Source: Anaerolineae bacterium
GTDB lineage: Bacteria; Chloroflexota; Anaerolineae; Aggregatilineales; Phototrophicaceae
Direction of reading: 5' to 3'
DNA: 64,000 nucleotides
Assembly: GCA_022843745.1 (NCBI GenBank)
Contig: JALHNB010000028.1
Coordinates: 27,604 to 91,603 of the forward strand
Positions 3,339 to 30,337 of this stretch are shown piece by piece. Each line of letters begins with the position of its first letter. Within the stretch, counting starts at the first letter, position 1. The notes beneath the pieces were generated by a model. That model had not been told where the DNA came from, did not search any database, and saw only the letters and a program-made list of their open reading frames with translations. Made by a program: the position numbers and the translations under genes.

Positions 3339-4154
3339 ATGACGAAATTGGGAATCGGCAGCTATGCTTTTGCGTGGTCGATTGGCATCGCAGGTTATCC
3401 GGTGGAAAAGCGGATGGACGTTTTGTCGTTTGTCCAACGTGCTTCTGAAATGGGCGTAAATCTCGTTCAGATCGCGGATAATCTGCCGCTGGATCGATTA
3501 TCAGCCGCCGAGTTTGACTCGCTGATTCATGAGACTCGACGTTTAGGGATCGCCGTCGAGGTCGGCACGCGCGGGATCGCCCATGACCATCTGCGAACGT
3601 ATTTACAGATCGCGCTGCGTTTTCAATCGCCGATTTTGCGGGTCGTGATTGACACCAAAGATCACCAGCCAGACTCCGACGAAGTTATCCGAAGTATCAA
3701 AGCGATCATGCCAGAATTCGAGCAAGCCGGGGTCACGCTGGCAATTGAGAATCATGATCGTTTCAAGGTGCGGACTCTGGCGCACATTATTGAAGCTATC
3801 GACAGCCCCTCCGTTGGAATATGCCTGGATACGGTTAATTCTCTTGGCGCGATGGAAACATCGGATGTGGTGGTCGATGTGTTAGGCCCTTATGTCGTCA
3901 ATTTACACGTCAAGGATTTTTCAATTCGACGCGCCGATCATAATCTCGGTTTTGTTGTTGAAGGCACTCCAGCCGGAAGTGGAGCGCTGAATATACCAGG
4001 GCTATTGAAACGGCTGAATGATTTTGGTCGCGATTTTAATGCCATTTTGGAGCTATGGCCTTCCCCTGAATCGAATATACAGGCTACTATCGACAAGGAA
4101 GCGGCGTGGGTTAGCCAGAGTATTTCTTATTTACGAACAATCATAAAGGAATGA
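3339..4154 (+). CDS. Sugar phosphate isomerase/epimerase-like TIM-barrel enzyme; candidate 3-oxo-isoapionate decarboxylase (OiaC-like)
   Basis: This is a 271-residue protein of the xylose-isomerase-like TIM-barrel (AP_endonuc_2) superfamily. Visible barrel landmarks are EVGTRG near residue 73, AIENHD near 137, CLDTVNS near 165, NLHVKDF near 190 and LELWPS near 246. These supply the metal-binding Glu, Asp, His and Glu set. GAAGG lies 7 bases before the ATG. The next gene overlaps the stop, so the two are probably translated together. The EVGTRG...HLRTYLQIA stretch resembles, from memory, the OiaC decarboxylase group that turns 3-oxo-isoapionate into L-erythrulose. That would fit apnL and apnO 24 kb away. 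Family is sure; substrate is inference. Confidence 0.8.
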   Translation: MTKLGIGSYAFAWSIGIAGYPVEKRMDVLSFVQRASEMGVNLVQIADNLPLDRLSAAEFDSLIHETRRLGIAVEVGTRGIAHDHLRTYLQIALRFQSPILRVVIDTKDHQPDSDEVIRSIKAIMPEFEQAGVTLAIENHDRFKVRTLAHIIEAIDSPSVGICLDTVNSLGAMETSDVVVDVLGPYVVNLHVKDFSIRRADHNLGFVVEGTPAGSGALNIPGLLKRLNDFGRDFNAILELWPSPESNIQATIDKEAAWVSQSISYLRTIIKE

Positions 4155-4159
4155 TATTG

Positions 4160-5182
4160 ATGAATAAGCTGCGTTTTGCGATGTTCGGGTCGGGCTTCTG
4201 GTCGCGCTATCAGCTTGCAGGGTGGGTGGAAACGGGCGGCGTGGAATGTGTCGCGATCTGCGACCCTATCCGCGAAAAAGCTGAAGCACGGGGGCGTGAC
4301 TACGGAATCACAACGATCTACACGGATCCTGAAGAACTTTTCAAAAAAGAGAAACTCGATTTTGTCGATATTGTCAGCAGTATCGAGACACATACCCAAC
4401 TTACACGTATGGCTGCCGCGCACAAGCTGCCTGTTGTGTGCCAGAAGCCGCTGGCAACGACTCTTGAGGGAGCAAAAGAAATTGTTGCTTTCTGTCAGGA
4501 AGCGGGTGTCCCTTTATTTGTGAACGAAAATTGGCGCTGGCAGCACGCCATTCGCCAGTTCAAGCACATGCTCGACGAGGGACGTATTGGCACACCGTTT
4601 CGTGGACGTATTAATTTTTGCAACAGTTACCCGGTTTTTGACAATCAACCGACGCTTAAAAATCTCGAACAATTTATTCTGAGCGATATGGGCAGCCACA
4701 TTCTCGATATGGCGCGATTCCTGTTTGGAGAAGCCCACAGCGTCTATTGTCAAAATCGACGTATTCATACGGACATCAAAGGCGAAGATGTCTCAACCGT
4801 GATGATGACGATGGGTGAGGCGCACACGACAGTGATTTGCGAGATGAGCTTCGCCAGCCGCATGGAAAATGAACGCTTTCCAGAAACCTATGCGTATGTT
4901 GAAGGCGATAAGGGATTTTTGGAGCTAGGGCCGGATTTCTGGATTCGTGAGACGACTGATGCCGGAACGCTGGCTAAACGCTATGCACCGCCGAACTACC
5001 CCTGGGCAAATCCTGATTATGCCGTTGTTCATTCGAGTATCGTGAATTGCCAGGGAAATTTTGTCGATGCACTGCAAGGTTATGGACAGGCCGAAACGAC
5101 AGGCGCGGATAATCTGAAGACGCTCCAGTTGATTTTCGATGCTTACGAGTCAATGAAAACAGGTCAGGCGATTACTTACTAA
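4160..5182 (+). CDS. Gfo/Idh/MocA family oxidoreductase; candidate D-apiose dehydrogenase
   Basis: An N-terminal Rossmann fold begins FAMFGSGFW and continues to CQKPLATT near residue 92, the conserved dinucleotide and catalytic Lys region. The C-terminal domain contains NENWRWQ and SDMGSHILDMARF, matching the family's substrate-binding half. An ATG at 4151 overlaps the upstream stop (ATGA), but AGGA at 4147-4150 is spaced correctly only for the ATG at 4160, which is chosen here (340 residues). Pairing with a TIM-barrel isomerase is the usual context for sugar oxidation modules. The GSGFW..YQLAGW start and the NENWRWQ motif recall D-apiose dehydrogenases of this family. That assignment is inference; inositol or keto-sugar dehydrogenase is the alternative. 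Confidence 0.8.
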   Translation: MNKLRFAMFGSGFWSRYQLAGWVETGGVECVAICDPIREKAEARGRDYGITTIYTDPEELFKKEKLDFVDIVSSIETHTQLTRMAAAHKLPVVCQKPLATTLEGAKEIVAFCQEAGVPLFVNENWRWQHAIRQFKHMLDEGRIGTPFRGRINFCNSYPVFDNQPTLKNLEQFILSDMGSHILDMARFLFGEAHSVYCQNRRIHTDIKGEDVSTVMMTMGEAHTTVICEMSFASRMENERFPETYAYVEGDKGFLELGPDFWIRETTDAGTLAKRYAPPNYPWANPDYAVVHSSIVNCQGNFVDALQGYGQAETTGADNLKTLQLIFDAYESMKTGQAITY

Positions 5183-5307: not shown

Positions 5308-6096
5308 TTATTGCGTGGATGTGATGCCGCCGTCAACATACAAAATCTGCCCGGTGATGAAATCCGAGGCAGGCGAGACGAAATACAGTACCGCGCTCAT
5401 GACTTCCTCGGGTTCGGCGACGCGCCCCAGGGGAATGCGCGCGGTCAATGCGCTGTAAAAATTCGGATCAGCCAGCATATCGGCGACAAGCTCGGTGCGC
5501 GTGAAGGTCGGCGCGACCACATTGACGTTAATTTTGTGGGGTGCCCACTCGGCGGCAAGCTGCTTGCTCATCGTACCCAGGCCGCCTTTTGCAGCGGTAT
5601 ATGCGGCATAACCCCGGCCACGCAGCGCCAGCATCGTCCGCACCGAGCCGATTTGCACCTGCTTGCCGCCATCACCTTGCTCGATCATGTACTTCGCCGA
5701 ACTCTGCGCCAGGAACAGGGCCGATTTCAGATTGGCAGTGTAGACGTAATCGAAATTCTCCTCGGTCACTTCAGTGGCTTTTTCTTCGCGGTTGAGTCCC
5801 ACGCAGTTGACCATAATGTCGATGCGCCCATAATGCTTGGCGACTTCATCAGTCATGCTGCGAATTTCCGCGACGGAGGCTGCATCAAATGTGGCAGCGT
5901 AGGTATCATAGCCTTCGCTTTTCATGCTGTCAGCCAGCGCATGAGCTTTGTCGGTGTTATGTCCGGCGATGGCGACTTTCGCACCGACAGCCGCCAGCCC
6001 TCGGCAAACCGCCTCGCCGATGCCGCCATAACCCCCCGGCACGAGCGCGACTTTGCCGTCTAAACGAAATAATTTTGAAAGTAAGTCAGTTGTCAC
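5308..6096 (-). CDS. Short-chain dehydrogenase/reductase (SDR)
   Basis: A classical SDR with the cofactor motif GGYGGIG near residue 20, an NCVG strand end and the catalytic YTAAKGG (YxxxK) near residue 155. The C-terminal YFVSPASDFITGQILYVDGG is the usual end of the family. The open frame extends to a TTG at 6126, but AAGGA at 6107-6111 fits a TTG at 6099 or the GTG at 6096; GTG is chosen (262 residues). It is the last gene of a minus-strand catabolic block and has its own upstream palindromic site at 6132-6160, so it may be separately controlled. Substrate is unknown; a polyol or sugar acid is most likely from context. Confidence 0.85.
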   Translation of the reverse strand: MTTDLLSKLFRLDGKVALVPGGYGGIGEAVCRGLAAVGAKVAIAGHNTDKAHALADSMKSEGYDTYAATFDAASVAEIRSMTDEVAKHYGRIDIMVNCVGLNREEKATEVTEENFDYVYTANLKSALFLAQSSAKYMIEQGDGGKQVQIGSVRTMLALRGRGYAAYTAAKGGLGTMSKQLAAEWAPHKINVNVVAPTFTRTELVADMLADPNFYSALTARIPLGRVAEPEEVMSAVLYFVSPASDFITGQILYVDGGITSTQ

Positions 6097-6131
6097 CAAT
6101 CCATTATCCTTTTTTAAATAGGCCAATCATA

Positions 6132-6160
6132 AATTGTTCTGGCCCAGAACAATTGTTCTG
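6132..6160. promoter_or_regulatory. Nested palindromic operator-like site upstream of the SDR gene
   Basis: AATTGTTCTGG, one central C, then CCAGAACAATT form an 11-bp inverted repeat (6132-6154). The right half is also the left half of a second perfect palindrome, CAGAACAATTGTTCTG (6145-6160). Three TTGTTCTG half-sites are therefore packed in 29 bp, about 36 bp before the SDR start. There is no T-run, so an operator is likelier than a terminator. The bound regulator is not in view. Confidence 0.6.
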
Positions 6161-6190
6161 TTGATTTGCTTTCTAGCCGCAAGCTGTCAG

Positions 6191-7216
6191 CTATCGAAAT
6201 CGCGGTGCGACCTGCTCGGCGAACAGGCGTAGGCCGTCCTCGCGCGGCATATCCACGAACCACAGCATAAAATGCGTGAAATCCATGTCCAGGTAGCGCT
6301 GAATCTGCGCGCTGACTTCATCTGGCGTGCCGATGATCCAGCTATCAGCAATTTCCGCTGGGAGCGCATCGGTTGCGCCAGATAGGAAGGGACGCAGCAG
6401 TTCAGGCGCTTCACTATTGGCATGAGACAACATTTCGGTGAAGCGCTGCCGTAATCCATCACGAGAGTCCGCGATCAGAATTTGAATTTCCAGCGTCTTT
6501 TCGATCTGGTCGTATGGCCTCCCCACTTCCTGACAAGCCGACTTCAGCGCTTCGAGCCGTTGTTCAAGTTCTTTCATCGGTACAGGCGTGGTATTCCAGC
6601 CCTGCGCATGGCGGGCAGCGGCTTTTAACATCTCCGGGTGCGCTTCGCCAAACCAGATTGGCGGGTGCGGCTTTTGTAGCGGACGCGGCGTACAGACCGC
6701 ATCGACAGCATGATAATGACGCGCATGAAAATTGACAGGTTCGTCACTTTGCCAGAGTTTCAGCGTGAGTTCCAGACCTTCAAGCGTGATCGCAAGCCGT
6801 TCTTCAAACGTGTAAGGATGCGGCAAGCCGTAAGCAAGATGTTCCGAAGCGCGTGTGCCGCCGTCGATAAAATAGATGAAACGCCCACCGGAAATCTGGT
6901 CGAGCGTCGCGATCATTTTAGCGGAGAGGGCAGGGTTGCGGAAAAAGTGAGCCTGATGGATGATGCCCAATTTCGCATGACGAGTCGAACCCGCCAGCGC
7001 CGCCAGTGTTGTCCAGCCTTCCATAATCGCATCATCTTTGCCGAGCATGAGATGGTCAGCGACCCACAGCGAGTCATAGCCAAGATCATCGGCTAAATGC
7101 GACACACGCATGGTGGTCGGCACGTCGAGCGCGGGATAATTCGGCGTTCGAAAGAAGTAATTGCCGGGGGCGGCGAAAATTGGTACACAAAAACCAAATT
7201 GAATCGGATAACTCAT
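6191..7216 (-). CDS. LLM-class flavin-dependent oxidoreductase (luciferase-like)
   Basis: A 341-residue luciferase-like TIM barrel. Family landmarks are HLADDLGYDSLWVADH near residue 40, LDQISGGRF near 125, an insertion-side PHPPIWFGE near 183, and an ending in an IGTPDEV(S/A)AQI segment. Such enzymes use FMNH2 or F420 for monooxygenation or hydride transfer. It ends 95 bases before the SDR start and starts 6 bases after the 2-hydroxyacid dehydrogenase stop, so it is in the same transcript. A flavin enzyme in a sugar-catabolism operon is unusual and suggests oxidation of an odd intermediate. Cofactor (FMN or F420) and substrate cannot be told from sequence. Confidence 0.82.
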   Translation of the reverse strand: MSYPIQFGFCVPIFAAPGNYFFRTPNYPALDVPTTMRVSHLADDLGYDSLWVADHLMLGKDDAIMEGWTTLAALAGSTRHAKLGIIHQAHFFRNPALSAKMIATLDQISGGRFIYFIDGGTRASEHLAYGLPHPYTFEERLAITLEGLELTLKLWQSDEPVNFHARHYHAVDAVCTPRPLQKPHPPIWFGEAHPEMLKAAARHAQGWNTTPVPMKELEQRLEALKSACQEVGRPYDQIEKTLEIQILIADSRDGLRQRFTEMLSHANSEAPELLRPFLSGATDALPAEIADSWIIGTPDEVSAQIQRYLDMDFTHFMLWFVDMPREDGLRLFAEQVAPRFR

Positions 7217-7222
7217 TTTCGC

Positions 7223-8281
7223 CTACCAATCCGAAACTTTATATTCAATCGGTTCACCGCGCAGTGTTCGCAACACGTTGAACCAGATATTTTGCGAATC
7301 GCGTACCCACGTCCAGGGGCCTTGCCACGCGGAATGCGGTGTCAGCGCGACGTTATAGCTCAAATCCTCGTGCAGCGCGTGCAGCGGATCATCAACCGGA
7401 ATCGGTTCTTCGAACATCACATCCAGCCCCGCGCCGCCGATTTTGTGATTTTTGAGCGCTTCTACCAGCGCAGGCTGATCGACCAGTTTGCCACGTGCCG
7501 TATTGACGAAGAACGAATGCGGTTTCATCAGTCCAATTTCACGCGCACCGATAATTTTAGTCGTCTCCGGCTTGATCGGCAGGTGGACGCTCAAAATATC
7601 GGATCGGCTGAAAATTTCATCCCATGAGACATATTCGATGCCATATTCTTTTTCAAGTTCGGGGAAACGAACTGCATCCCAATAGATAGCCTTCATGCCG
7701 AATGCTTGGGCATAACGCGCCATCGGGCGGGCGATCTCACCAAAGCCGAGCAATCCCAGTGTTTGATCCCATGCCAAACGGATGCCTGGTTGGACGATAA
7801 TCGGCCCCCAATTGGTTTTAGCATAGGCACGTGATTCCATATGGACGCGGTACTGCGGAATCTGCTTCATATAATCGAGAATGAGCGCCCAGCTATGTTC
7901 GGCGACAGCGACGTAATTAATCAGCGGCGTGGCGGCGACTGGAATGCCAAGCTCCCGCGCAGCATCCATCGGCACACCACGATAGTCCTGACCAAGATGC
8001 TGCACAAGGCGCAATTTTTTGCCTTTTGCCAGAATTTCCGCTGGCACACGCTCTTTATGAATCACTAGAAAATCGGTATCCTCGATTAGCGGCTCAAGTT
8101 CCTCTAATTTATGGATTTGATGTAATTCTATTTCGTAACCTGCAAAAGCTTCTTCAAAAGTCGGCGCACCTTCGACGGCTGCCGGGTCGTCGTCGGTGAG
8201 CGCATAGGTATCCGTTGCTTTGCCCAGGCGCATACCGAGTAACACATTGCCAATATTGTCCCAAACGACAATTTTTATCAT
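7223..8281 (-). CDS. D-isomer-specific 2-hydroxyacid dehydrogenase
   Basis: A 352-residue NAD-binding protein. The Rossmann motif LLGFGEIARPMARYA lies near residue 175. The catalytic set is visible: Arg in NTARGKLVD, Glu in FEEPIP and His in TPHSAW. The gene overlaps the stop of the upstream TIM-barrel gene by four bases (ATGA type), so translation is probably coupled. The expected reaction is reversible NAD(P)H-dependent reduction of a 2-oxoacid, or oxidation of a sugar-acid-derived 2-hydroxyacid, which fits an operon that also oxidises sugars with Gfo/Idh/MocA and SDR enzymes. It differs from PdxB and SerA in lacking extra C-terminal domains. Confidence 0.85.
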   Translation of the reverse strand: MIKIVVWDNIGNVLLGMRLGKATDTYALTDDDPAAVEGAPTFEEAFAGYEIELHQIHKLEELEPLIEDTDFLVIHKERVPAEILAKGKKLRLVQHLGQDYRGVPMDAARELGIPVAATPLINYVAVAEHSWALILDYMKQIPQYRVHMESRAYAKTNWGPIIVQPGIRLAWDQTLGLLGFGEIARPMARYAQAFGMKAIYWDAVRFPELEKEYGIEYVSWDEIFSRSDILSVHLPIKPETTKIIGAREIGLMKPHSFFVNTARGKLVDQPALVEALKNHKIGGAGLDVMFEEPIPVDDPLHALHEDLSYNVALTPHSAWQGPWTWVRDSQNIWFNVLRTLRGEPIEYKVSDW

Positions 8282-9207
8282 GCCATAACCTCTGCCCAGG
8301 CGCGGGCGAATGTACGTTTGCCGTTGGCGAGGACGGCCTGTGGATTTTCGCCAGTATTCGTTTTTAGCTCCATCGTCAAAATCGGCTTGATGCCCAGACG
8401 TTCACGCGCACGTTCCCAGTAATTGACCGCGTTAAGCTGATGCAGATAGTCGATCACTTCCGGCAGGTCGTTGCGCCCCAGCGGATGACCGAAGCGTGGG
8501 TGGAAATCGCCATACAGCGGCGAGTCCGGGTGGTCGATTACGCAGTTGCCGATGTGGGCATGGATGAGATGCGGCGCGGCGGTTTTCAGAGCATGTTCCG
8601 GCGTTTCATTGATGAGCGGCAGATGGCTCAGGTCAATCGTTAGGCCGAAATTGGTGCGATCAACCGCGTCCGCCATCGCAACGGCTTCGACAGTCGGGCC
8701 AATGACGCGCTTTTTCTCGATATCACGATCAAAGTTTTCGAACGTCAGGTGCAGCAGTTGTTTCGTCGATTTTGCGGATGCGTAGTCACAAAGCTGCTGA
8801 ATATCCTCGACCAGCCGCGCGACCACGCCTTCACGTTGGTCAGCGCCGGGGTCAAGTGGGCCGGTTATCATCGCCATTGGAGAGTTGAAATCAATCGCTT
8901 CGTCAATGAGCGTGCGCAAGCGGGTTTGCGCGGCGGCGCGTTTGGTTTCATCCGCGCTGCCTAAGCCCAGATTTTCGATAATGATCGGCAGAATCGGCAG
9001 GTAAACGACCTGAATCGATGCCGTCGCCAGATACTCTTTTGCCTGCTGACGAATCGCCGGGTCGTTGATGGGCGCAATTTCGATAGCGCCAAAATCTGAG
9101 TCATTGACGATGATGGGCAGCGTTTCCATGATCGGTCCGCCACCACCGCGACATTCAAAATAGATAAGCGGGTGAACCACGCCAAAATCGGTTGTGGCCT
9201 GCCACAT
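8278..9207 (-). CDS. Sugar phosphate isomerase/epimerase-like TIM-barrel protein
   Basis: A 309-residue protein with barrel signposts LTFENFDRD near residue 152, LTIDLSHLPL near 197, HAHIGNC near 216 and MELKTN near 275. These match the metal-binding Glu, Asp, His and Glu of xylose-isomerase-like enzymes. An insertion around residues 220-245 (DHPDSPLYGDFHPRFGH) is not in the shorter paralogues at 3339 and 10427. The start follows the upstream Gfo/Idh/MocA stop by three bases, with GGGGGC as ribosome site. The reaction could be isomerisation, epimerisation, dehydration or decarboxylation. It is clearly divergent from the other two copies, so three different substrates are likely. Confidence 0.78.
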   Translation of the reverse strand: MWQATTDFGVVHPLIYFECRGGGGPIMETLPIIVNDSDFGAIEIAPINDPAIRQQAKEYLATASIQVVYLPILPIIIENLGLGSADETKRAAAQTRLRTLIDEAIDFNSPMAMITGPLDPGADQREGVVARLVEDIQQLCDYASAKSTKQLLHLTFENFDRDIEKKRVIGPTVEAVAMADAVDRTNFGLTIDLSHLPLINETPEHALKTAAPHLIHAHIGNCVIDHPDSPLYGDFHPRFGHPLGRNDLPEVIDYLHQLNAVNYWERARERLGIKPILTMELKTNTGENPQAVLANGKRTFARAWAEVMA

Positions 9208-9210
9208 GAT

Positions 9211-10413
9211 TTAGCCCCCTTGCACGATTTGCGCCTGATAGGGCAAGTCGCTGCTTGTAAGCATTTCATCGGTGGTGACGATGCGCCCCAAAAGCTCGGA
9301 TTCGAGGAAGCCGTAGGTGATTGCCAGGGAGCGCAACCCGTCTTCGCCCGTTACTTCCGGCTCACGATTATTCACAATCGCGTCGGCGAGATCAGCTTGC
9401 TCAATCGCCAGCAAATTGGCATCAATATCTTGCCATGCCAATTCATAGGATGAGAGGCGTTCGCTGCCGAAAAGTGCCGCCGTCACATCATCCAATTTGA
9501 ATTCCGGCAGCAGCGCTAATTGATCGGTCTCGGAAATGGCCTCATCTTTGCCATTTTTGCGGATGCTTAACTTGAGAGGTTTCCCGCTGCGATCACCCGG
9601 AATCGAGAGTGAGCCGGATGTGCCGTAGATCGTTCGAGCGAACATACCCTCGCCACGTCCAGCCATGCTCAGGACATAATTAGCCAGTGCGCCGCTGCGA
9701 TAGCGGGCAACGCCAATTGAGAGGTCTTCAGCGTCGGCAGGATGGGTGTTACCTTGTTGATCGACGCGCTGGGTATCGACGACTGCGTTCATGCCGACCA
9801 CGCTGTCGATGGGGCCGAGATAATATTCGAGCAGATCAGCGTAGTGAATGCCCATATCGACGATAATCCCGCCTCGGCTTTTCAGATGCCGCCAGGGTGT
9901 GATAATCACGTTCTCGCCCGCGCCGGATGACATCTGCACCGCCAGAAAGGGTCGTCCGATAACGCCGTCGTCAATCAGCGCTTTTGCCAGACGGTTGATC
10001 GGATCACGTCGATAATTTTCGGCGACTGCTAACTTGAGTCCGGCATCGCGTCCTGCTTTGACGAGCTTCGCGCCTTCAGGAACGGTAAGCGTCATCGGCT
10101 TTTCGGCGAGGACGTGTATTCCGGCGGCGAAAGCTTCCATCGCGACATCAAGATGCGTTTCCGGCGTGGTCGTGACGACGATGCCGTCCAGATGCAGGGT
10201 GCGGATAGCTGAACCAAGATCGTTAAAAATTTGCGGACGTTTGCCGAGCAGTTCTTCGGCGAGGTTCGCGGCGCGTTCGGCATTTTCGCCAAAAATATCG
10301 CAAACGGCGACCAGATCGAAAGGCAGGCGATTGACAGCCTGCAATTTTTTCATGCCTAAAATATGGCGGCGTCCCATCCCACCGCAGCCAACAAGAGCAA
10401 AACTTAAGGTCAT
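9211..10413 (-). CDS. Gfo/Idh/MocA family oxidoreductase
   Basis: A 400-residue dehydrogenase. The N-terminal Rossmann segment is ALVGCGGMGRRH, and the family's catalytic Lys lies in AEKPMTLTVPEG near residue 99. HLKSRGGIIVDMGIHYADL near residue 183 is the typical entry to the C-terminal beta-sheet domain. AAAGGAAC precedes the ATG at a normal distance, and the gene lies 13 bases after the upstream isomerase. Members oxidise or reduce ring hydroxyls of sugars and inositols with NAD(P). With two TIM-barrel partners in the same operon, a keto-sugar or keto-inositol route is plausible. It is not a close copy of the protein at 4160. Confidence 0.85.
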   Translation of the reverse strand: MTLSFALVGCGGMGRRHILGMKKLQAVNRLPFDLVAVCDIFGENAERAANLAEELLGKRPQIFNDLGSAIRTLHLDGIVVTTTPETHLDVAMEAFAAGIHVLAEKPMTLTVPEGAKLVKAGRDAGLKLAVAENYRRDPINRLAKALIDDGVIGRPFLAVQMSSGAGENVIITPWRHLKSRGGIIVDMGIHYADLLEYYLGPIDSVVGMNAVVDTQRVDQQGNTHPADAEDLSIGVARYRSGALANYVLSMAGRGEGMFARTIYGTSGSLSIPGDRSGKPLKLSIRKNGKDEAISETDQLALLPEFKLDDVTAALFGSERLSSYELAWQDIDANLLAIEQADLADAIVNNREPEVTGEDGLRSLAITYGFLESELLGRIVTTDEMLTSSDLPYQAQIVQGG

Positions 10414-10426
10414 TTTTTAAGTTCCT

Positions 10427-11221
10427 TTATGCCTTTTGCGGCAGTTCGATTGTATAGCCGAGATTGCGTAAATACTGTGCGTTGGCTTCGGCGCTGTGGG
10501 CGGGTGAAATATCGCTACGGCTGTGTTCGATGACGATCCAGCCGGGGAACTGCTGATCGACCAGTTCAGCCAGAATTGCCGCGAAATCCAGTCCAATCGT
10601 CCCCTGACCCAACTCGACAAATTTGCCTCGCGCCCAGTCTTTCATATGAATGTAGCTGGTGCGCTCACGATATTTGCGGAGATGCGCGATGGAGTCTTCG
10701 TCAACGAGGTTGATATGCGATACATCCAGGCAGAGCGACATTACTTTGGTTTCGTTGAGCAGGATGTCGATTTCGTCCTCGGTTTCAATCGTGCAGCCAG
10801 TATGGGGATGATAGCCAATCGCAACGCCTTTGTCCTCACCATAGACTGCCAGTTCCTCGCAGGCAGCGGCGAGATCGGAATATTCGGCGGCAGTTGGCGG
10901 GCGCTGGCGCAGACGGCCTCCCCCGACTAGCCCGTAGGCTTCGGCGTGAAAGAGCGCCGCATAATCAATGCGCTGCTTGTGAATGGCGATTTCGTTGCGG
11001 TCAACAGGCACGGAAATCGAGCCAAAAAATGTAGCCGCTTCCAGGCCGCCGAGCAGGAACTTGAGTCGCTCCGGCGTTCCGAGCCAGTCGAGCGAGTGGT
11101 CAAAAAGCTCAACCGCGCCCCATCCACTCTGGCGGATTTCCGAAAACATTGTTGCAAGATCGCCGCGCGTTCCCCAATTGATCGTGCTGTAGGCAAAACG
11201 TAAAGCGTGTGAGTTAGTCAT
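10427..11221 (-). CDS. TIM-barrel isomerase/dehydratase, IolE-like
   Basis: This is the first gene of the minus-strand block, 264 residues. YHPHTGCTIETEDEIDILL near residue 155 matches the HPHxGTxxET signature of inosose dehydratase (IolE) and hydroxypyruvate-isomerase-like barrels. SLCLDVSH, SYIHMKDW and VIEHSRSD supply the remaining metal ligands. It starts at an ATG beside a 263-bp divergent intergenic region. An IolE-like enzyme next to a Gfo/Idh/MocA dehydrogenase could act on inositols, but no IolG, IolD or IolB neighbours are present, so 2-keto-inositol dehydration is only one option. Confidence 0.8.
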   Translation of the reverse strand: MTNSHALRFAYSTINWGTRGDLATMFSEIRQSGWGAVELFDHSLDWLGTPERLKFLLGGLEAATFFGSISVPVDRNEIAIHKQRIDYAALFHAEAYGLVGGGRLRQRPPTAAEYSDLAAACEELAVYGEDKGVAIGYHPHTGCTIETEDEIDILLNETKVMSLCLDVSHINLVDEDSIAHLRKYRERTSYIHMKDWARGKFVELGQGTIGLDFAAILAELVDQQFPGWIVIEHSRSDISPAHSAEANAQYLRNLGYTIELPQKA

Positions 11222-11469: not shown

Positions 11470-11484
11470 AAGGAATCCTCTCAC

Positions 11485-21912: not shown

Positions 21913-21937
21913 TCAGGCAGATTTTCAGGATAGCAAT

Positions 21938-22027: not shown

Positions 22028-22081
22028 GGTACATGATAGGTGCATATACCAGCAACCGATGCTTGAGGAGATACAACGAGT

Positions 22082-22963: not shown

Positions 22964-22996
22964 TACGATGGTCGTAACAATCTGGTGTAATCCTTC

Positions 22997-24250
22997 ATGA
23001 GCGATATTGCAATTGATCTGCAAAATATTGGTAAGCAGTACAAGATTGGGGGTGAACGCCAACGCTACCGGGCGCTGCGGGATACGCTCACGGATATTGT
23101 AAAGACCCCTGTGCGACGTGCGCGTAATATTTTGAGGGGACAGGCTTACGCAGCATCCGACATGAATGAGACATTTTGGGCGCTGCGTGATGTGAACCTG
23201 CAAATCAAGGATGGCGAAGTCGTCGGTATTATTGGGCGCAATGGTGCGGGCAAAAGTACGCTGCTGAAAATTTTGTCGCGCATCACCGAGCCGAGTGAAG
23301 GTTATGCGGATATTTATGGGCGGGTCGGTGCGCTTCTCGAAGTCGGCACAGGCTTTCACCCGGAGCTAACCGGACGCGAGAATATTTTTCTCAACGGCGC
23401 GGTTTTGGGGATGCGGCGTGGCGAGATTCTGCGCAAATTTGATGAAATTATTGCCTTTGCTGAAGTCGAAAAATTCATTGACACGCCTGTGAAGCATTAT
23501 TCGAGTGGTATGGCGCTGCGATTGGGCTTTTCGGTGGCGGCACACCTCGAGCCAGAAATTTTGCTGGTCGATGAAGTGCTGGCGGTGGGTGATTTCGCAT
23601 TTCAGAAAAAATGCCTGGGTAAAATGGATGATGTGGCGAAGTCCGGGCGGACGGTGCTGCTGGTCAGCCACAACATGGCGGCGATTGCCAATTTGTGTAC
23701 GGCGACGGTGCTGCTGAATCGCGGTCAACTGGTCAATTATGGCCCGACGGCGGATATTATCGAGCAATATTTAAATATGGGAGATGTCGAAGATGAGATA
23801 GATGAAGTTTTAAGGGATGGTCGATACGTTGAGAAAATAGAATGTCGCGATCATTTAAACAACCCGACACAGACTTACCGTGTTGGTGATCCGCTGGTTA
23901 TTGATGTCACCCTTAAGAATCTGGATCAAATCGCGTCACCCAATTTAGGGCTACTGGTGTGCAATCATTTTGGGGATCGCTTAATCTTATTGTCTCCCCA
24001 TGTTCAGTCAGAACTGGTTTTATCACGACTGGATCGAAAAACGTATCGTGTCATCACCGAACCGCTTAATTTACTGCCCGGATACTATACTTTTGAGATT
24101 AGTATCGGCAGCGGTTATGAGACGGTTGAAAATTTTAAGAGCTTGCCGGGATTCACAATTGAGTACACTGATTACTTCAACACTGGCAAAATGCCAATGG
24201 CTAAACAGGGTATCCTCGCGCAAAAAGCGACCTGGCAGATTATTGACTGA
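22997..24250 (+). CDS. wzt: Polysaccharide ABC exporter ATPase (Wzt) with C-terminal glycan-binding domain
   Basis: A 417-residue protein. Walker A is GRNGAGKST (residues 80-88), signature YSSGMALRLGFSVAAH lies near 173, and Walker B ILLVDEVLAVGD near 193. The ATPase ends near residue 260. The remaining 150 residues form a beta-rich extension like the O-antigen-binding domain of Wzt proteins that recognise a modified chain end. That extension implies that export here depends on a terminal cap, and a methyltransferase gene lies directly downstream. It could instead be a TagH-type exporter of teichoic-acid-like polymers. Confidence 0.9.
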   Translation: MSDIAIDLQNIGKQYKIGGERQRYRALRDTLTDIVKTPVRRARNILRGQAYAASDMNETFWALRDVNLQIKDGEVVGIIGRNGAGKSTLLKILSRITEPSEGYADIYGRVGALLEVGTGFHPELTGRENIFLNGAVLGMRRGEILRKFDEIIAFAEVEKFIDTPVKHYSSGMALRLGFSVAAHLEPEILLVDEVLAVGDFAFQKKCLGKMDDVAKSGRTVLLVSHNMAAIANLCTATVLLNRGQLVNYGPTADIIEQYLNMGDVEDEIDEVLRDGRYVEKIECRDHLNNPTQTYRVGDPLVIDVTLKNLDQIASPNLGLLVCNHFGDRLILLSPHVQSELVLSRLDRKTYRVITEPLNLLPGYYTFEISIGSGYETVENFKSLPGFTIEYTDYFNTGKMPMAKQGILAQKATWQIID

Positions 24251-24285
24251 AGATTACTTCACTGAAGACCAAATGAGACTATTTC

Positions 24286-25014
24286 ATGCGGCTGTTTAAT
24301 CGGAATTGGAAAGAAATTGCACACTATGTCCGTTACAACCTGAAGGGTTTTCCGCTAGCATTTTCAATGTTAGCATCGAATTCTCAGCGAAAACATTTTG
24401 GAGAATGGCTGCGTTCGCATCAAAAAGGTTATCTCCTTAAGCGTCCGATGCCCTGGATTGCCTTTGATGCGTATGATTATCTTGCTGAAATGCTGCCGGA
24501 AAAGGCTCGTGTGTTTGAATATGGCAGCGGTGGCTCAACACTTTTCTGGTTAACTCGCAAAAATTGCCAATGTGTATCCATAGAACATAACCCACAATGG
24601 TTTGCTATCGTCAATAAATACGTGGCTGGCCTGAGTAATCAAAAGGCTCTGGAATATCGTCTGGTCGAACCAGCAGTCTTTAAGAGCGATAGGCTGGATG
24701 TGTACGATCCGACGAAATACCTGGACGATAAAATGCGCAATTTTTCGTTTGAAAAATATGTCAAACAGATTGATGAGTTCCCGGATGCCTACTTCGATCT
24801 GGTCATGGTCGATGGCGAATCGCGTCCGGCGTGTATCGCTCACGGTTGCCGGAAGGTCAGATCAGGCGGTTTTTTGATTGTTGATAATGCTGAACGTCGC
24901 GACTACTTTAACCATGTGAAAGCCCTGCTTGAGCCGTTCGATGAAATTTCGTTTCGTGGCGTTGTTCCAGCGGCGATGATTATGTCGCAGACCAATATTT
25001 ATCGACGGCGATAA
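24286..25014 (+). CDS. Class I SAM-dependent methyltransferase-like protein
   Basis: A 242-residue protein. VFEYGSGGSTLFWLTRK near residue 75 has the glycine-rich SAM loop. CVSIEHNPQWF follows with an acidic ribose ligand, and FDLVMVDGESRPACI near residue 170 is the post-motif strand. It resembles O-methyltransferases more than FkbM. No closer family is recognised. Position immediately after wzt, whose C-terminal domain may read a capped end, makes it a candidate chain-terminating methyltransferase; this is inference. Confidence 0.7.
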   Translation: MRLFNRNWKEIAHYVRYNLKGFPLAFSMLASNSQRKHFGEWLRSHQKGYLLKRPMPWIAFDAYDYLAEMLPEKARVFEYGSGGSTLFWLTRKNCQCVSIEHNPQWFAIVNKYVAGLSNQKALEYRLVEPAVFKSDRLDVYDPTKYLDDKMRNFSFEKYVKQIDEFPDAYFDLVMVDGESRPACIAHGCRKVRSGGFLIVDNAERRDYFNHVKALLEPFDEISFRGVVPAAMIMSQTNIYRRR

Positions 25015-25027
25015 GCGCAGAGGAATC

Positions 25028-25534
25028 ATGCTCAAGTCCATTTTGAGGCCAATCTATCGCCGCTTTTTCCCCGTGCTGGATGCTTTCCAGGTCGCGCAAT
25101 ACTGGCGTGATCGGGGGATGCAGATCGGTGAAGGCACAACGCTTTACAATGTCGTTTTCGGGCGTGGTGGGCGTGATCCCATTATCATCGGCAAAAATTG
25201 CGTTCTCACGGGTTGCACGATTTTGGGACACGATGCTTCCACTAATGCGCGACTGGGTTTCAAAGTCGGCGAAGGCTCGATTATGCAACCAGTCGTTATT
25301 GAGGACGACTGCTTTATTGGCGTAGGGGCGATTGTCCTGATGGGCGTTACGATTGGTAAAGGCTCGATTGTCGGCGCGGGGGCGGTTGTGACCAAAGATG
25401 TACCCGCAGGGGTCGTGGTTGGTGGCAACCCGGCTCAAACGATTTGCAGTGTTGACGAACTGGTCGAAAAACGCCGTCAGCTTTATCGCGAACACCCGGA
25501 ATATTTCCCGAAAAAGCCAACAGGCATTGATTGA
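25028..25534 (+). CDS. Hexapeptide-repeat acyltransferase
   Basis: A 168-residue left-handed beta-helix protein. Isoleucine-patch repeats are visible in MQIGEGTTLYN, IIIGKNCVLTGCTIL, FKVGEGSIMQPVVI, CFIGVGAIVLM and VTIGKGSIVGAGAVVTKDVPAGVVVGGNPA, the last being the usual C-terminal coil of serine acetyltransferase- and NeuD-like enzymes. HDAST carries the probable catalytic His. It begins 13 bases after the methyltransferase stop and is likely part of the wzm-wzt transcript, acetylating a sugar of the polymer or of its precursor. Confidence 0.8.
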   Translation: MLKSILRPIYRRFFPVLDAFQVAQYWRDRGMQIGEGTTLYNVVFGRGGRDPIIIGKNCVLTGCTILGHDASTNARLGFKVGEGSIMQPVVIEDDCFIGVGAIVLMGVTIGKGSIVGAGAVVTKDVPAGVVVGGNPAQTICSVDELVEKRRQLYREHPEYFPKKPTGID

Positions 25535-25550
25535 AAAGTATACTCCGTTT

Positions 25551-26747
25551 ATGAAAATCTTTGCCTATGGCTCAATCCCAAAAGACGGCGGTACGTTCAC
25601 GTTTTATCAGAATTTGCGCGAAGGTTTGCGCCAATATGGTTGGGACATGCGCTGTATCACGGTTGGTCCGCACGAAAATGCGGGATGGGATGATAAATTC
25701 GCTGACGACGGTTGCATAAGAATCGCGCCTCATGAAACGGATCTCAAGAAGCAGTCAACAGCGTTTGTCGAGTGGTGCAGGGATAACCATGTTTCAGTCG
25801 TGATGCCGATTAATTCGCGTGGGATTATCGCCGCGCTGCCGCATCTGCCGCCAGAGTCGCGTATTGTCACACGCTGCGCCGACAGCACCGATGAAGGTTA
25901 TCGTCGCGCGACCTATGCGCAGGAGCGAATTGCACGGGTGGTCGCGGTCACACCCCGACACGTCGAAGATTTGCCCAAAAACTATGGCATCAATCGTGAG
26001 AAAATCACGCTTATTCCGCATGGAATTGACCTCACACCTTATGTGTCAATCCACCGACTGGCAAACGATACCCTGCGAATCGTGTTCGTCGGGCGGCTGC
26101 ATGAGCAAAAAGGCATTCTTTATATCCCTGGAATTTTGCAGATTCTGGAAGAACGCGGAATTTCATATCATCTGACCGTTGCGGGATCGGGTATGCACCA
26201 GGATATTTTGCAAGATAAGATGAAAACCTCGATTCAGGCCGGGCATGTGACGTTTTTGGGGACAATTCCACGCGCAGAGATTCCGACTGTACTGTCAAAG
26301 GCTGATATTTTGCTGTTTTTGTCGCACCATGAAGGTTTTGGTTTTGCGCTGATCGAAGGTATGGCAGCGGGTTGTGTGCCAGTCGCCTCGCTGCTCCCCG
26401 GCGTGACGGATTTTATCGTCGAAAACGGCAAGACGGGTTTTTTGAGTGCGGTGGGCGATGTACAGGGCTTCGCCGCGTCGATTATCGAACTTCATCATGA
26501 TCGCCAACGGTTGCGCGAGATGGGGGAGGCAGCGGCGAAGGCTGTCCGCCAACGTTTTAGCCGGGAGCGCATGGCTGCCGAATACGCGCGTTTGCTTGAT
26601 TCGGTCATGGCGATGCCACCTATCGACCTGCCACCACGCCCCTGGGATCAATTTGTCGAACCATCGCTCGACCCACGCCGCTGGCACAGTTTCGTGCCGC
26701 GTTCATTCAAGCGCTTTGCTCGGCGACTCCTGCATCGACTTACATAA
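25551..26747 (+). CDS. GT4-family glycosyltransferase
   Basis: A 398-residue GT-B enzyme. The open frame extends back into the acyltransferase gene, but the ATG at 25551 begins the characteristic N-terminal strand MKIFAYGSIPKDGGTFTFYQ and is chosen. The donor domain shows VFVGRLHEQKGILYIPGIL near residue 175 and FLSHHEGFGFALIEGMAAGC near 258, with Glu-X7-Glu. A basic tail (FKRFARRLLHRLT) could contact the membrane. It is the last gene of the wzm transcript and runs into the convergent RraA-family gene with an eight-base overlap. Confidence 0.83.
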   Translation: MKIFAYGSIPKDGGTFTFYQNLREGLRQYGWDMRCITVGPHENAGWDDKFADDGCIRIAPHETDLKKQSTAFVEWCRDNHVSVVMPINSRGIIAALPHLPPESRIVTRCADSTDEGYRRATYAQERIARVVAVTPRHVEDLPKNYGINREKITLIPHGIDLTPYVSIHRLANDTLRIVFVGRLHEQKGILYIPGILQILEERGISYHLTVAGSGMHQDILQDKMKTSIQAGHVTFLGTIPRAEIPTVLSKADILLFLSHHEGFGFALIEGMAAGCVPVASLLPGVTDFIVENGKTGFLSAVGDVQGFAASIIELHHDRQRLREMGEAAAKAVRQRFSRERMAAEYARLLDSVMAMPPIDLPPRPWDQFVEPSLDPRRWHSFVPRSFKRFARRLLHRLT

Positions 26748-27441
26748 TTCCAAATTTGGCGAAGGCCTCGACGGTACTCATGCCTTCTTCGATAGCTTTC
26801 CGCACCAGTTTCTCGCCCCGCGCTTTTTCGATAGCCTTGTTAAAAACTTCTTCTTCAGCAGCTTTGGGGATCACACATACGCCGTCGATGTCGCCAAAAA
26901 CGATGTCCCCCGGCAGAATTTTGACACCGCCGATTTCCAACGGTACGCGAAAATCAATCACCTTACCGCGCACGCCCTGATCCTGGGCATAGCGCCCATA
27001 CGAAAATGTCGGAAATTTGAGATCGAGTATGCCTGGAGTATCCCGCGAATAGCCATCCAGAACTGCGCCTGCCGCGCCCAATTTGATCGCGCGGGTACTC
27101 ATTAACTCGCCCCAGAGTGCGTATTTGGGCGAACTGCCTGTGCAAATATAAACCTCATTGGGTTTCAGGTCATCCAGCGCTTCGAGCATGAGGCCAAATG
27201 GCTTATTCATCAGCGGGTTCGCGCTATTGGAAACTTTGTCCGTGAAAACGTCAGCTTCTAACACGGGCATCGCGCGTCCAATCGCGACCATATCCGGCGA
27301 AAGTGCCTGAATTTGCGGCGGTAAGAATTGAAGCTGTAGGCCTAACTTATCCATCACATCGCCCACAACGGCTGTAAAAAGTTCCTGACGTGCCAGCTTG
27401 AAAAGTTCGTCATCTGATTGCCAAAGTTTTGCCAAGATCAT
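26740..27441 (-). CDS. RraA-family enzyme (HMG aldolase / demethylmenaquinone-methyltransferase-like fold)
   Basis: A 233-residue protein of the RraA fold. TAVVGDVMDKLG near the start, KLGAAGAVLDGYSRDTPGI near residue 120, with the Arg-Asp of the metal and oxaloacetate site, and GDIVFGDIDGVCVIP near 185 are the family signatures. Catalytically competent members are aldolases or decarboxylases for 4-hydroxy-4-methyl-2-oxoglutarate or oxaloacetate; the RNase E regulators lack the second of these sites. The gene is divergent from apnL over a 111-bp region and may share its operator, so a role in branched sugar acid catabolism is suggested but unproven. Confidence 0.78.
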   Translation of the reverse strand: MILAKLWQSDDELFKLARQELFTAVVGDVMDKLGLQLQFLPPQIQALSPDMVAIGRAMPVLEADVFTDKVSNSANPLMNKPFGLMLEALDDLKPNEVYICTGSSPKYALWGELMSTRAIKLGAAGAVLDGYSRDTPGILDLKFPTFSYGRYAQDQGVRGKVIDFRVPLEIGGVKILPGDIVFGDIDGVCVIPKAAEEEVFNKAIEKARGEKLVRKAIEEGMSTVEAFAKFGIM

Positions 27442-27497: not shown

Positions 27498-27525
27498 TTG
27501 ACAGTCCATATGGATTGTATACAAT
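27498..27525 (+). promoter_or_regulatory. Promoter of apnL-apnO with a GntR-type palindrome over the -10
   Basis: TTGACA (27498-27503), a 16-bp spacer and TACAAT (27520-27525) form a strong promoter. ATTGTATACAAT (27514-27525) is a perfect 12-bp palindrome overlapping the -10, the form of site typical of FadR/GntR-family repressors. Binding would block RNA polymerase directly. The divergent RraA-family gene starts about 70 bases away and may be co-regulated. The regulator gene is not in the window. Confidence 0.65.
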
Positions 27526-27552: not shown

Positions 27553-29490
27553 ATGTCACTTACATCGCGAGAAATTTATTATGGTCAGGATGTGCCGCTG
27601 CCAGAGCAAATCATGCTGTCTGCTGGGCCGCTGTCACTGGCATTTGAGGACGGCAGTCTGCGGACGATAAAGGCCGGGAATGCGGAAGTCGTGCGGCAGA
27701 TTTACAGTGCTGTACGCGATCAGGGTTGGGCAACAATCATCCCTCAGCTCACCATTCTTGAAAAACAAATTAATTCCGATTCATTTCATCTTCGATTCAA
27801 GGCTGAACACCTGCGCGGAGAAATTCATTTTGCCTGGATCGGAACGATTGACGGTACAGCAGATGGCATCGTGACTTTCGATCTGGATGGCGAAGTGCTT
27901 TCGACCTTCCAGCGCAACCGCATTGGTTTCTGCGTGCTGCATTCGATGGCCTATGGTGGGCAGGAATGTGTGGTTGAGCGAGTCGATGGCACAGAAATCG
28001 TGGGGACATTTCCGCAGTTTATTTCACCCCACCAGCCATTTAAAGATATGCGGGCGATTCGCTATGTCGTCAGCCCCGGCGTGACGGCGGAAGTGCGCTT
28101 TGAAGGCGATACTTTTGAGACAGAAGATCAGCGTAACTGGACGGATGCCTCTTACAAGACCTACTGTACCCCACTTGAAGTTCCTTATCCGGTCACGGTG
28201 GAAAAAGGGACAAAAATTCATCAGCGCATTACCGTGCGATTGATCGAACAAGCGCCACAAGGCAAATCGAAACTGGAAGGTGCAGCGCTGCAATTTGCGG
28301 TTGGTGGGCGTACTTCGCCGCTGCCCAAAATTGGCTTGAGCGTTGCCAGTCATGGTCAGCCGCTTACGAATCTTGAAATCGAACGTTTGAAAGCGCTTAA
28401 CCTATCCCACTTACGTGCGGAACTGCACTTCTCGAAGCCGGACGTAGAGGCCAAGCTGCGGCAGGCTGTCAATGAAGCCCGTGCCCTGAACATCGGTTTG
28501 GAGATCGCACTGTTCCTCTCAACTGACCCTGAGCGCGAATTGCGAATGTTGCGGGCAAGTCTGGATGTTGTAAAACCAACGATTGCCCGCTGGATGATTT
28601 ACCGCGACAAGGAATTTGTAACTTCCGAAAAGTGGATTCGACTCGCGCGTGAAATTCTTGGCGATTATGACTCTTCGGCGGGATTTGGCGGTGGGACGGA
28701 CGGGTTTTTCTCTGAACTGAACCGCAATCGTCCAACGCTCGAGGGCCTCGATACGGTAAATTATTCACTCAATCCCCAGGTTCATGCTTTTGATAACGTG
28801 ACGATGGTCGAAAATCTGGCAGCGCAGGCTGTGACGCTCGACAGCGCCCGACAGTTTTGTGGAGATATTCCGCTTACCGTCAGCCCGATTACACTCAGGA
28901 TACGCTATAACCCTGTCGTTGCTACACCCGAAGCGCCTCCTCCTCCCGGTGAGCCGCCCTCACAGGTGGATGCGCGTCAAATGTCACTCTTCGGGGCTGG
29001 CTGGACGGTTGGCAGCGTCAAATATCTCGCTGAAAATGGCGTTTCAAGCCTGACCTATTACGAAACCACCGGCTGGAAAGGCGTTATGGAAACGACACAG
29101 GGCACACCACTGCCCGAAAAATTCCATTCGATTCCCGGCTCGGTTTTCCCGACGTATCATGCGTTGGCGGATATTGGCGCATTTGCCGGGGGAGAAGTTG
29201 TTGCTAGCCAATCCAGCGCACCGGAACTCGTGGATGGTATTGCGTTGCGCAGGGGTGACAACGTCCGAGTGATTCTCGCGAATTTTGGCCCTGTAACACA
29301 GCGCGTGACACTTGAAGGGCTTGTCGGTGACCTAACGATGCAATCATTGGACGAGACGAATGCAGAAGAGGCGATGGTCAAACCGGAAGCATACCGCACA
29401 CTGGTCGGTGAAAAACATAATACGACTACTATTGAACTCAAGCCGTTCGCTATCGTGCGGCTGGACGGTCAACTAACAGGAGAAAATTAA
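27553..29490 (+). CDS. apnL: D-apionate lactonase (ApnL family)
   Basis: A 645-residue cytosolic protein with no signal peptide. I recognise the ApnL architecture: an N-terminal beta domain with CVLHSMAYGGQECVVERVDG near residue 136 and ETEDQRNWTDASYKTYCTPL near residue 193, a middle TIM-barrel-like part (NLSHLRAELHFSKPDVEAKL onward, residues 285-530), and a C-terminal beta domain. Known members open D-apionolactone to D-apionate in apiose catabolism. The next gene, two bases after the stop, is the pathway's next enzyme, which supports the call. The ATG has AGGAG 11 bases upstream. Confidence 0.68.
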   Translation: MSLTSREIYYGQDVPLPEQIMLSAGPLSLAFEDGSLRTIKAGNAEVVRQIYSAVRDQGWATIIPQLTILEKQINSDSFHLRFKAEHLRGEIHFAWIGTIDGTADGIVTFDLDGEVLSTFQRNRIGFCVLHSMAYGGQECVVERVDGTEIVGTFPQFISPHQPFKDMRAIRYVVSPGVTAEVRFEGDTFETEDQRNWTDASYKTYCTPLEVPYPVTVEKGTKIHQRITVRLIEQAPQGKSKLEGAALQFAVGGRTSPLPKIGLSVASHGQPLTNLEIERLKALNLSHLRAELHFSKPDVEAKLRQAVNEARALNIGLEIALFLSTDPERELRMLRASLDVVKPTIARWMIYRDKEFVTSEKWIRLAREILGDYDSSAGFGGGTDGFFSELNRNRPTLEGLDTVNYSLNPQVHAFDNVTMVENLAAQAVTLDSARQFCGDIPLTVSPITLRIRYNPVVATPEAPPPPGEPPSQVDARQMSLFGAGWTVGSVKYLAENGVSSLTYYETTGWKGVMETTQGTPLPEKFHSIPGSVFPTYHALADIGAFAGGEVVASQSSAPELVDGIALRRGDNVRVILANFGPVTQRVTLEGLVGDLTMQSLDETNAEEAMVKPEAYRTLVGEKHNTTTIELKPFAIVRLDGQLTGEN

Positions 29491-29491
29491 C

Positions 29492-30337
29492 GTGACAAAA
29501 ACAATCGCTCTTTTTGGGGCAGGGGGCAAAATCGGGTCGCGCATCGCCCGCTTACTCAGTCAGGATTCGGCCTATCGGACCTTATTTGTTGAGGGTGGAG
29601 AGGCAGGCAGGGCGCGTCTCCAGGAGATGAATCTGACACCAACACCCGCTGAAGACGCGATTGGCGATGCAGATGTTGTCATTCTGGCGGTGCCGGATTT
29701 ACTGATTGGCAAAATCGCCGGGGAAATTGTCCCGCATCTGAAATCTGGCTCAATGGTTATCGGACTCGACCCCGCTGCGCCATTCAGCGGAAAATTCCCG
29801 CCGCGCGAGGACATCAGCTATTTTGTGACGCACCCCTGTCACCCGCCTGTCTATAACGACGAAACCGACCCGACAGCGCGAATGGATTATTTCGGTGGTA
29901 CGGCAAAACAAAATATTGTCTGTGCGATTATGCAGGGGACTGAATCGGACTATGCTCTGGGTGAGGAGATCGCCCGCAAAATGTTCGCGCCCGTGATGAA
30001 AGCGCACCGCGTGACCGTCGAGCAAATGGCGATTCTGGAGCCAGCGCTGGTCGAGACGATCACGATTACCTGCATGACGGTTATCCGTGAGGCGATGGAT
30101 GAAGCCATCAAGCGTGGCGTACCGCCGGAAGCTGCTCAGGATTTTTTGCTGGGGCATATCAACATTGATATCGCGATTTTGTTCGGGTTTTTAAACGCGC
30201 AGTTTTCCGATGGCGCGAAGATGGCCGTCAAACGGGGCATGGAGCAGATCATTCAGCCGGACTGGAAAAAAGTTTTTGAGCCGGAAAATGTGATGCGCGA
30301 GGTCAAGATCATTACCGAAGGCGTTCAAAACCGATAG
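29492..30337 (+). CDS. apnO: D-apionate oxidoisomerase (ApnO family)
   Basis: A 281-residue NAD-dependent Rossmann enzyme. IALFGAGGKIGSRIA is the cofactor motif. YFVTHPCHPPVYNDETD near residue 110, DYFGGTAKQNIVCAIMQG near 132 and DFLLGHINIDIAILFGF near 215 are characteristic of the ApnO / phosphogluconate-dehydrogenase-C-terminal group. ApnO oxidises and rearranges D-apionate to 3-oxo-isoapionate. Two bases after apnL and ahead of a hairpin terminator, it forms a two-gene operon. The downstream decarboxylase is not adjacent; the best candidate is at 3339. Confidence 0.68.
   Translation: MTKTIALFGAGGKIGSRIARLLSQDSAYRTLFVEGGEAGRARLQEMNLTPTPAEDAIGDADVVILAVPDLLIGKIAGEIVPHLKSGSMVIGLDPAAPFSGKFPPREDISYFVTHPCHPPVYNDETDPTARMDYFGGTAKQNIVCAIMQGTESDYALGEEIARKMFAPVMKAHRVTVEQMAILEPALVETITITCMTVIREAMDEAIKRGVPPEAAQDFLLGHINIDIAILFGFLNAQFSDGAKMAVKRGMEQIIQPDWKKVFEPENVMREVKIITEGVQNR

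Follow-up and report, generated by a model that had tools for sequence, protein, structure and literature searches.

Plant cell walls and flavonoid glycosides contain the sugar apiose. An oxidative D-apiose route with an OiaK/OiaX branch was reportedly described by Carter et al. in 2018, who are also said to have characterised OiaC proteins. In the published route, OiaK and OiaX carry out the decarboxylation. An excerpt of PMC6302742 gives 3-oxo-isoapionate-4-phosphate as a substrate of the RuBisCO-like proteins from Agrobacterium radiobacter K84 and Xanthobacter, and an excerpt of PMC11747546 describes strain LCG007, which has an ApnL, ApsD, ApnO, OiaK and OiaX cluster and grows on D-apiose as the sole carbon source. 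Excerpts of other sources describe another D-apiose pathway, in E. coli (PMC13001218), or give the functions of LerI, DerI, LerK and EryC (PMC10733421), and the excerpts of PMC10103415 and PMC8139981 refer to apiose solely in connection with form IV RuBisCO. Here we analysed a 64,000-nucleotide stretch (hereafter, the window) of contig JALHNB010000028.1 from an Anaerolineae bacterium of the phylum Chloroflexota (assembly GCA_022843745.1). Two separated gene pairs in it, one for a TIM barrel protein and a Gfo/Idh/MocA oxidoreductase and the other for an ApnL-like protein and ApnO, on balance probably encode a single oxidative D-apiose route to L-erythrulose, as judged from their sequences and those of related loci.

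The source assembly (7.96 Mb, 117 contigs) is 98.6% complete, with 4.0% contamination. The original prediction had placed a co-translated TIM-Gfo pair and an adjacent ApnL-ApnO pair on either side of a group of polysaccharide genes, an arrangement that we confirmed as follows.

3339..4154, plus strand: TIM barrel protein, xylose-isomerase-like and OiaC-like, proposed 3-oxo-isoapionate decarboxylase (PF01261, 82.5 bits; 271 amino acids)
4151..5182, plus strand: Gfo/Idh/MocA oxidoreductase of the ApsD type, proposed D-apiose 1-dehydrogenase (PF01408/PF22725; 343 amino acids)
11485..26747, no single strand: context, glycosyltransferase and polysaccharide export genes separating both pairs (PF00953, PF00534, PF04932 slightly under its cut-off, PF01061, PF00005)
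27498..27525, plus strand: promoter-like site before the ApnL-like gene (TTGACA-16-TACAAT, 11/12, motif match)
27553..29490, plus strand: ApnL-like protein, proposed apionolactonase (NF049900, 308 bits; 645 amino acids)
29492..30337, plus strand: ApnO, proposed D-apionate oxidoisomerase (PF16896, 210 bits; 281 amino acids)

All four frames are open at these places, and the arrangement is far beyond chance. The TIM and Gfo frames overlap by 4 bases (an alternative Gfo start at 4160 gives 340 amino acids), whereas a gap of 1 base separates the ApnL-like and ApnO genes, from which, together with their shared strand, we infer cotranscription in one operon. The promoter-like site is weak, because the region has six such sites against a shuffled mean of 3.4. 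The two pairs lie 22 kb apart on the contig; the proteins tested between them included a glycosyltransferase, an O-antigen-ligase-like protein (slightly under the cut-off) and ABC-2 and ABC ATPase proteins.

In the proposed route, the Gfo/Idh/MocA protein would oxidise D-apiose, giving apionolactone, which the ApnL-like protein would open; the product, D-apionate, would be oxidised and rearranged by ApnO to 3-oxo-isoapionate, and the OiaC-like TIM barrel would decarboxylate the latter to L-erythrulose. The first three reactions are plausible. The analysis shows the genes and the families to which they belong, their co-occurrence and common loci in relatives, and the lack of matches to OiaK, OiaX or Dak1 in the searches of the present genome; we infer each activity, the substrate and the role of the TIM barrel. 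With the OiaK/OiaX systems of R. acidisoli (L002) and LCG007 the window shares ApsD-type, ApnL-type and ApnO genes, and relatives in the order have OiaK and OiaX as well; the present genome differs in having no match to OiaK or OiaX, no adjoining importer found, two separate pairs and a TIM barrel. Of the stretches read, those of R. acidisoli, SC52 and Shinella contain an OiaX-type gene and that of S. meliloti does not.

The linkage of the two pairs was assessed in 121 genomes of the order and 400 of the phylum, with the present genome counted in both samples. In the order, the TIM protein (E value at most 1e-20) occurred in 11 genomes and ApnO in 9: both in 8, the TIM protein only in 3 (G452, G467 and G487), ApnO only in 1 (G450, where its gene lies at the end of a 4.1-kb contig) and neither in 109. 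The Fisher p value for this co-occurrence, which is not corrected for kinship, was 1.6e-9, or 1.6e-8 without the present genome. In six of the seven relatives having both (G407, G426, G469, G473, G476 and G513), the TIM and ApnO genes are 0.2-1.2 kb apart, and in the seventh (G517) they are on one contig at a distance of about 87 kb. A DUF6786 gene lies between ApnO and the TIM gene, with the Gfo gene adjoining the latter, in five of these seven. The gene order in G426, G469, G513 and G476 is GntR regulator, binding protein, ABC permease, ATPase, permease, ApnO, DUF6786, TIM and Gfo; ApnL, OiaX and OiaK are nearby in G426 and G513, OiaK and OiaX are nearby in G469, and all three are on another contig in G476. 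The run in G407 comprises an importer, ApnL, OiaX, OiaK, ApnO, DUF6786, TIM and Gfo, and that in G517 comprises GntR, ApnL, OiaX, OiaK, a hydrolase, ApnO and Gfo. In G473, at a contig end, the TIM gene comes straight after ApnO and OiaK. ApnL was present in the fetched stretches of six of the eight ApnO-bearing relatives, those of G469 and G473 having none. Outside the order, G365 has a full cluster of ApnL, a nucleoside-hydrolase-like gene, ApsD, OiaX, OiaK and ApnO.

We also compared environmental homologues (the best 120, 119 and 119 listed), counting contigs above 2 kb of exactly equal size. Among the matches listed, the TIM and ApnO proteins gave 12 such cases against a mean of 0.46 for shifted sizes, the TIM and Gfo proteins 14 against 0.44, and the Gfo and ApnO proteins 3 against 0.38. 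In the phylum sample, the TIM protein was found at 1e-30 in 2 of the 400 genomes, the second at 32% identity. The wide spread of the TIM-Gfo pair, with thousands of environmental homologues, had been considered as evidence against apiose and was set aside once the TIM-ApnO linkage was found. The functional link proposed between the pairs is thus supported, with co-occurrence in 8 of 121 order genomes and short distances in six of seven relatives. A chance placement of two unrelated pairs would accord with the glycan genes between them and with the three order genomes that have the TIM protein without ApnO; in view of the co-occurrence in the order and the equal-size environmental contigs it is highly improbable, and the shared loci largely refute it. 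We conclude that the two pairs belong together: loci of relatives in the order link them, the Gfo protein clusters with ApsD, the assignment of ApnO is clear, and the gene immediately before that of ApnO is the ApnL-like one. The pathway module is real, and it is split and reduced in the present genome.

The family assignment of ApnO is clear. The protein consists of an NAD-binding N-terminus and a PF16896 C-terminal domain with full-length similarity, and nearly all of it aligns with two solved chains, 5t57 (303 bits) and 3c24 (267 bits). It is 50-55% identical to the ApnO proteins of four alphaproteobacterial loci (those of R. acidisoli, S. meliloti, SC52 and Shinella), of G365 and of the eight order relatives, and 74-94% identical to those of an environmental clade (P0242-P0316). 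Full-length matches were found in 3 of the 400 phylum genomes (the present one, G365 and G273), and the other 56 matches in that sample were weak and partial.

The Gfo/Idh/MocA fold of the second protein is supported by PF01408 and PF22725, and its best solved chain is 5uhw (258 bits over its length; the next chain has 73). The PDB title of 5uhw is only 'Oxidoreductase protein'; we take this chain to be ApsD of Agrobacterium. In a tree of 26 proteins (a 23-row clade and 3 outgroup rows, whose long branches were flagged), the protein of the window stands with the Gfo proteins of the order's loci and groups with ApsD, apart from the 3 outgroup rows (91/89). It is 54-64% identical to the locus Gfo proteins of the order and 37-40% identical to the reference ApsD proteins. 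K99, D179 and H183, presumably the catalytic residues, are invariant in all 23 clade rows. In the plasmid loci with annotation (L091, L093 and L095 have none and were left out), a related Gfo gene directly precedes the ApnL-position gene in five of five (L002, L004, L005, L092 and L094), and the ApnL-position gene is annotated 'hypothetical protein' in L092 and L094. The protein is a plausible D-apiose dehydrogenase of the ApsD type.

The ApnL-like protein had no match in the Pfam search, and its sole NCBIfam match was to D-apionate lactonase NF049900 (E value 1e-91). R. acidisoli ApnL scores 1043.5 bits with this profile, and the ApnL-like protein of the full G365 cluster scores 338, so that the cut-off of 750 bits also excludes a Chloroflexota gene in a clear apiose context. 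Relatives 46-55% identical are present in the order's apiose loci, and the best match in a named genome is 55% identical ('Chloroflexi bacterium'). In the tree, from which the partial, long-branched row L024 was left out, the protein falls in a 30-row clade that includes the locus members, apart from three alphaproteobacterial ApnL proteins (100/100). Its own score of 308 bits is below the cut-off, and its gene adjoins that of ApnO.

Use of the ApnL-like gene as an apiose marker through its neighbours was also considered and rejected: ApsD, OiaX, OiaK and ApnO stand beside it in 1 of the 27 examined loci (L034, in G365), and the nearest named relative (L050, 55%) has another context. ApnL similarity alone therefore does not mark an apiose locus. 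In L050 (positions 466-6687), the ApnL-like gene is followed by genes for an epimerase and for E1 alpha, E1 beta and E2 of a 2-oxoacid dehydrogenase complex.

Several observations weigh against a single apiose route. The assembly contamination of 4.0% is one of them. No sugar importer or GntR-type regulator was found among the Pfam-tested neighbours. The position of the ApnL-like protein inside the 30-row clade is without resolution, and its score is below the NF049900 cut-off. The ApnO protein is 51-54% identical to those of the order relatives and 68-95% identical to nine environmental rows; since it falls in another Chloroflexota ApnO clade than the order relatives, the ApnL-ApnO pair may have been acquired. 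The ApnL-like family extends beyond the apiose pathway: its proteins were present in 18 of the 400 phylum genomes, and of the 17 besides the present one, 15 lack a full-length match to ApnO. The last of these observations, the distance of the Gfo protein from the reference ApsD proteins, and the 2-hydroxyacid dehydrogenase, aldolase, sulfatase or 2-oxoacid dehydrogenase genes beside some ApnL-like genes in the phylum and named-genome scans would suit a single route whose substrate is not apiose but a related sugar or sugar acid. We regard this as unlikely, given that the relatives' loci hold OiaK and OiaX, which are named for 3-oxo-isoapionate and its phosphate, and that the OiaK proteins of the three relatives tested score 503-536 bits with NF042436, above the 467 bits of the alphaproteobacterial OiaK (all under the cut-off of 700).

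The other adverse observations concern the TIM barrel. We compared the pockets of 14 TIM proteins: that of the window, seven from Chloroflexota relatives, four from Alphaproteobacteria, and those of Erwinia and Pantoea. All 14 agree at 29 positions, namely E137, D164, H190 and E238, which we take to be the metal tetrad, and 25 others. The Roseibium TIM protein keeps 28 of the 29 and other superfamily members keep most, so that these residues mark the superfamily and not OiaC alone. One side of the TIM tree holds the locus proteins (support 59/0; one change in 98% of bootstraps); the Erwinia and Pantoea rows are on a long branch (2.62) with a placement that lacks resolution. G517 is a genome of the same taxonomic family as the present one, and the aligned columns of its TIM protein do not differ from those of P0041, 'Anaerolineaceae bacterium'. 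Among the genomes with the TIM protein and no ApnO, that of G487 is 50% identical and inside the locus clade, and those of G467 and G452 are 38-41% identical. The TIM protein coexists with OiaK and OiaX in seven of the eight ApnO-bearing relatives, and may therefore have another role than that of a decarboxylase.

The plasmids of Erwinia E602 (L007) and Pantoea At-9b (L099), which we ourselves read as OiaC loci, carry a TIM barrel of the same superfamily beside ApnO and share the 29 invariant positions. They differ from the window in sequence (29% identity for the TIM protein, 36-37% for ApnO) and in carrying a Dak kinase, a triosephosphate isomerase (TPI)-type isomerase and RpiB, none of which was found beside the genes of the window. 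The nearest plasmid relatives of the TIM protein include alphaproteobacterial loci with a tripartite ATP-independent periplasmic (TRAP) transporter, a short-chain dehydrogenase/reductase (SDR), a transketolase and a TIM barrel 32-36% identical to ours (L003, L006, L096, L098 and L101); unlike the present genome, these have no ApnO, ApnL or ApsD recognised in the annotation. A Dak gene follows the TIM gene in L096 and L098, and also in L008, where the stretch read is without the transketolase pair. As an observation in its own right, an OiaC-like TIM barrel occurs in these six plasmid loci together with a Dak kinase and/or the TRAP, SDR and transketolase-pair genes.

A serious rival is that, in the relatives, the TIM barrel acts after OiaX as an isomerase or epimerase of erythrulose phosphate (replacing LerI, or EryC-like), the route of the present genome being either truncated after 3-oxo-isoapionate or finished by another enzyme. 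Ketose epimerases of PF01261 use enediolate chemistry, and the TIM protein has a weak match to L-ribulose-5-phosphate 3-epimerase (20 bits); both favour this role, as does the presence of the TIM gene in the loci or genomes of seven relatives with OiaK and OiaX. The enediolate intermediate is common to 3-oxo acid decarboxylation and tetrulose phosphate isomerisation, so that both roles fit the TIM barrel. Two points argue against the isomerase role: the present genome keeps the TIM gene yet has no match to OiaK, OiaX or Dak1 to make a phosphorylated tetrulose, and the Erwinia and Pantoea proteins beside ApnO share the pocket where Dak and TPI-type genes are present and no OiaX is annotated in the stretches read. 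We consider the isomerase role possible, with a chance clearly below even. Whether the TIM step is a decarboxylation or something else is about even; distant similarity, the shared pocket and gene context suggest the OiaC role. We file the protein as OiaC-like only, because the present genome has no match to a Dak-type L-erythrulose kinase (PF02733).

The OiaK, OiaX, Dak1 and TPI-type genes were searched in 13 genomes (the present one, the eight ApnO-bearing relatives, the three with the TIM protein only, and G365). OiaK and OiaX matched in all eight relatives (in G473 OiaX is partial, at a contig end) and in G365; neither matched in the present genome or in G452, G467 and G487. The OiaK homologue of G513 (C12:1082606-1083958) has an internal TAG stop and is possibly broken. 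Dak1 (PF02733) had no match in the present genome, and matched only in G469, G487 and G452, of which G469 alone is among the eight relatives. TPI-type matches were found in 11 of the 13 genomes, one each except two in G487, with none in G469 and G450; a second match occurred in none of the eight relatives. The expected L-erythrulose kinase and isomerase were thus not found in the ApnO-bearing relatives either, which counts for the isomerase role and against a decarboxylase.

The original prediction had called the route complete, which is not borne out: neither OiaK with OiaX nor OiaC with an L-erythrulose kinase was found in the present genome, where kinases other than Dak1 were not searched. 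Its proposal of four steps within 27 kb is partly supported, the OiaC role of the TIM barrel being less secure. OiaK and OiaX do not adjoin the two pairs, through both of which the contig is assembled, and could lie hidden in a missing part of the genome. Without matches to OiaK, OiaX or Dak1, nothing found in the present genome uses L-erythrulose, and the last steps would have to differ here from those of the eight relatives. If the route works here, the TIM barrel must decarboxylate 3-oxo-isoapionate in the role of OiaC, and L-erythrulose needs another exit. Probably the OiaK/OiaX branch has disappeared from the present genome, or from the donor of these genes, and the direct decarboxylase has been retained; the four genes now stand in two transcripts. 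That this Chloroflexota lineage dropped the RuBisCO-like branch, and that free L-erythrulose from the TIM barrel decarboxylase is used by an undescribed Dak-independent route, is rather unlikely. Conserved loci of the order combine a TIM barrel with the RuBisCO-like branch, and in one genome the latter was not found; this contrast is a natural experiment bearing on the identity of the decarboxylating enzyme and on the fate of L-erythrulose.

A DUF6786-type protein, encoded between ApnO and the TIM gene in five of the eight ApnO-bearing relatives (by Pfam in three, by similarity in two), is flagged as a candidate member of the pathway; our guess is that it may be a mutarotase. None was found in the window and L028, the only parts of the present genome examined for it. 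Its genes lie at the following places.

L114:8823-9881, DUF6786-type protein
L115:10546-11604, DUF6786-type protein
L116:8848-9927, DUF6786-type protein
L117:8837-9922, DUF6786-type protein
L118:10789-11853, DUF6786-type protein

Two further features of the window lie close to the pairs.

26740..27441, minus strand: RraA-like protein, divergent from the ApnL-like gene with 111 bases between (PF03737, 109.5 bits)
5308..11221, minus strand: six-gene run convergent with the TIM-Gfo pair, encoding an SDR, a luciferase-like monooxygenase, a 2-hydroxyacid dehydrogenase, a TIM barrel, a Gfo protein and a TIM barrel (another Gfo protein and two additional PF01261 barrels besides those of the pair)

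The RraA-like protein was considered as a replacement decarboxylase because its gene is divergent from the ApnL-like gene. In L028 of the present genome and in 49 fetched stretches of other genomes (a few of them overlap) that carry ApnL-like, ApnO, OiaX/OiaK or TIM genes, no homologue was found at an E value of 1e-3, the only match being the protein itself; we rejected it as the main explanation, and its role in the route is doubtful. The six-gene run may be another sugar or glycoside route. Two large frames lie outside these regions, both on the minus strand. The one at 31137-34709 encodes a 1190-residue protein with a Ser/Thr kinase at its N-terminus and a LuxR-type DNA-binding domain at its C-terminus, in addition to NB-ARC/AAA and TPR repeats. 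The other, an open frame of 1042 amino acids at 3-3128 that continues beyond the window, has N-terminal NITGLGL repeats, a GTSFSAPF motif, which we take to be subtilase-like, and acidic DSDGD repeats towards its end.

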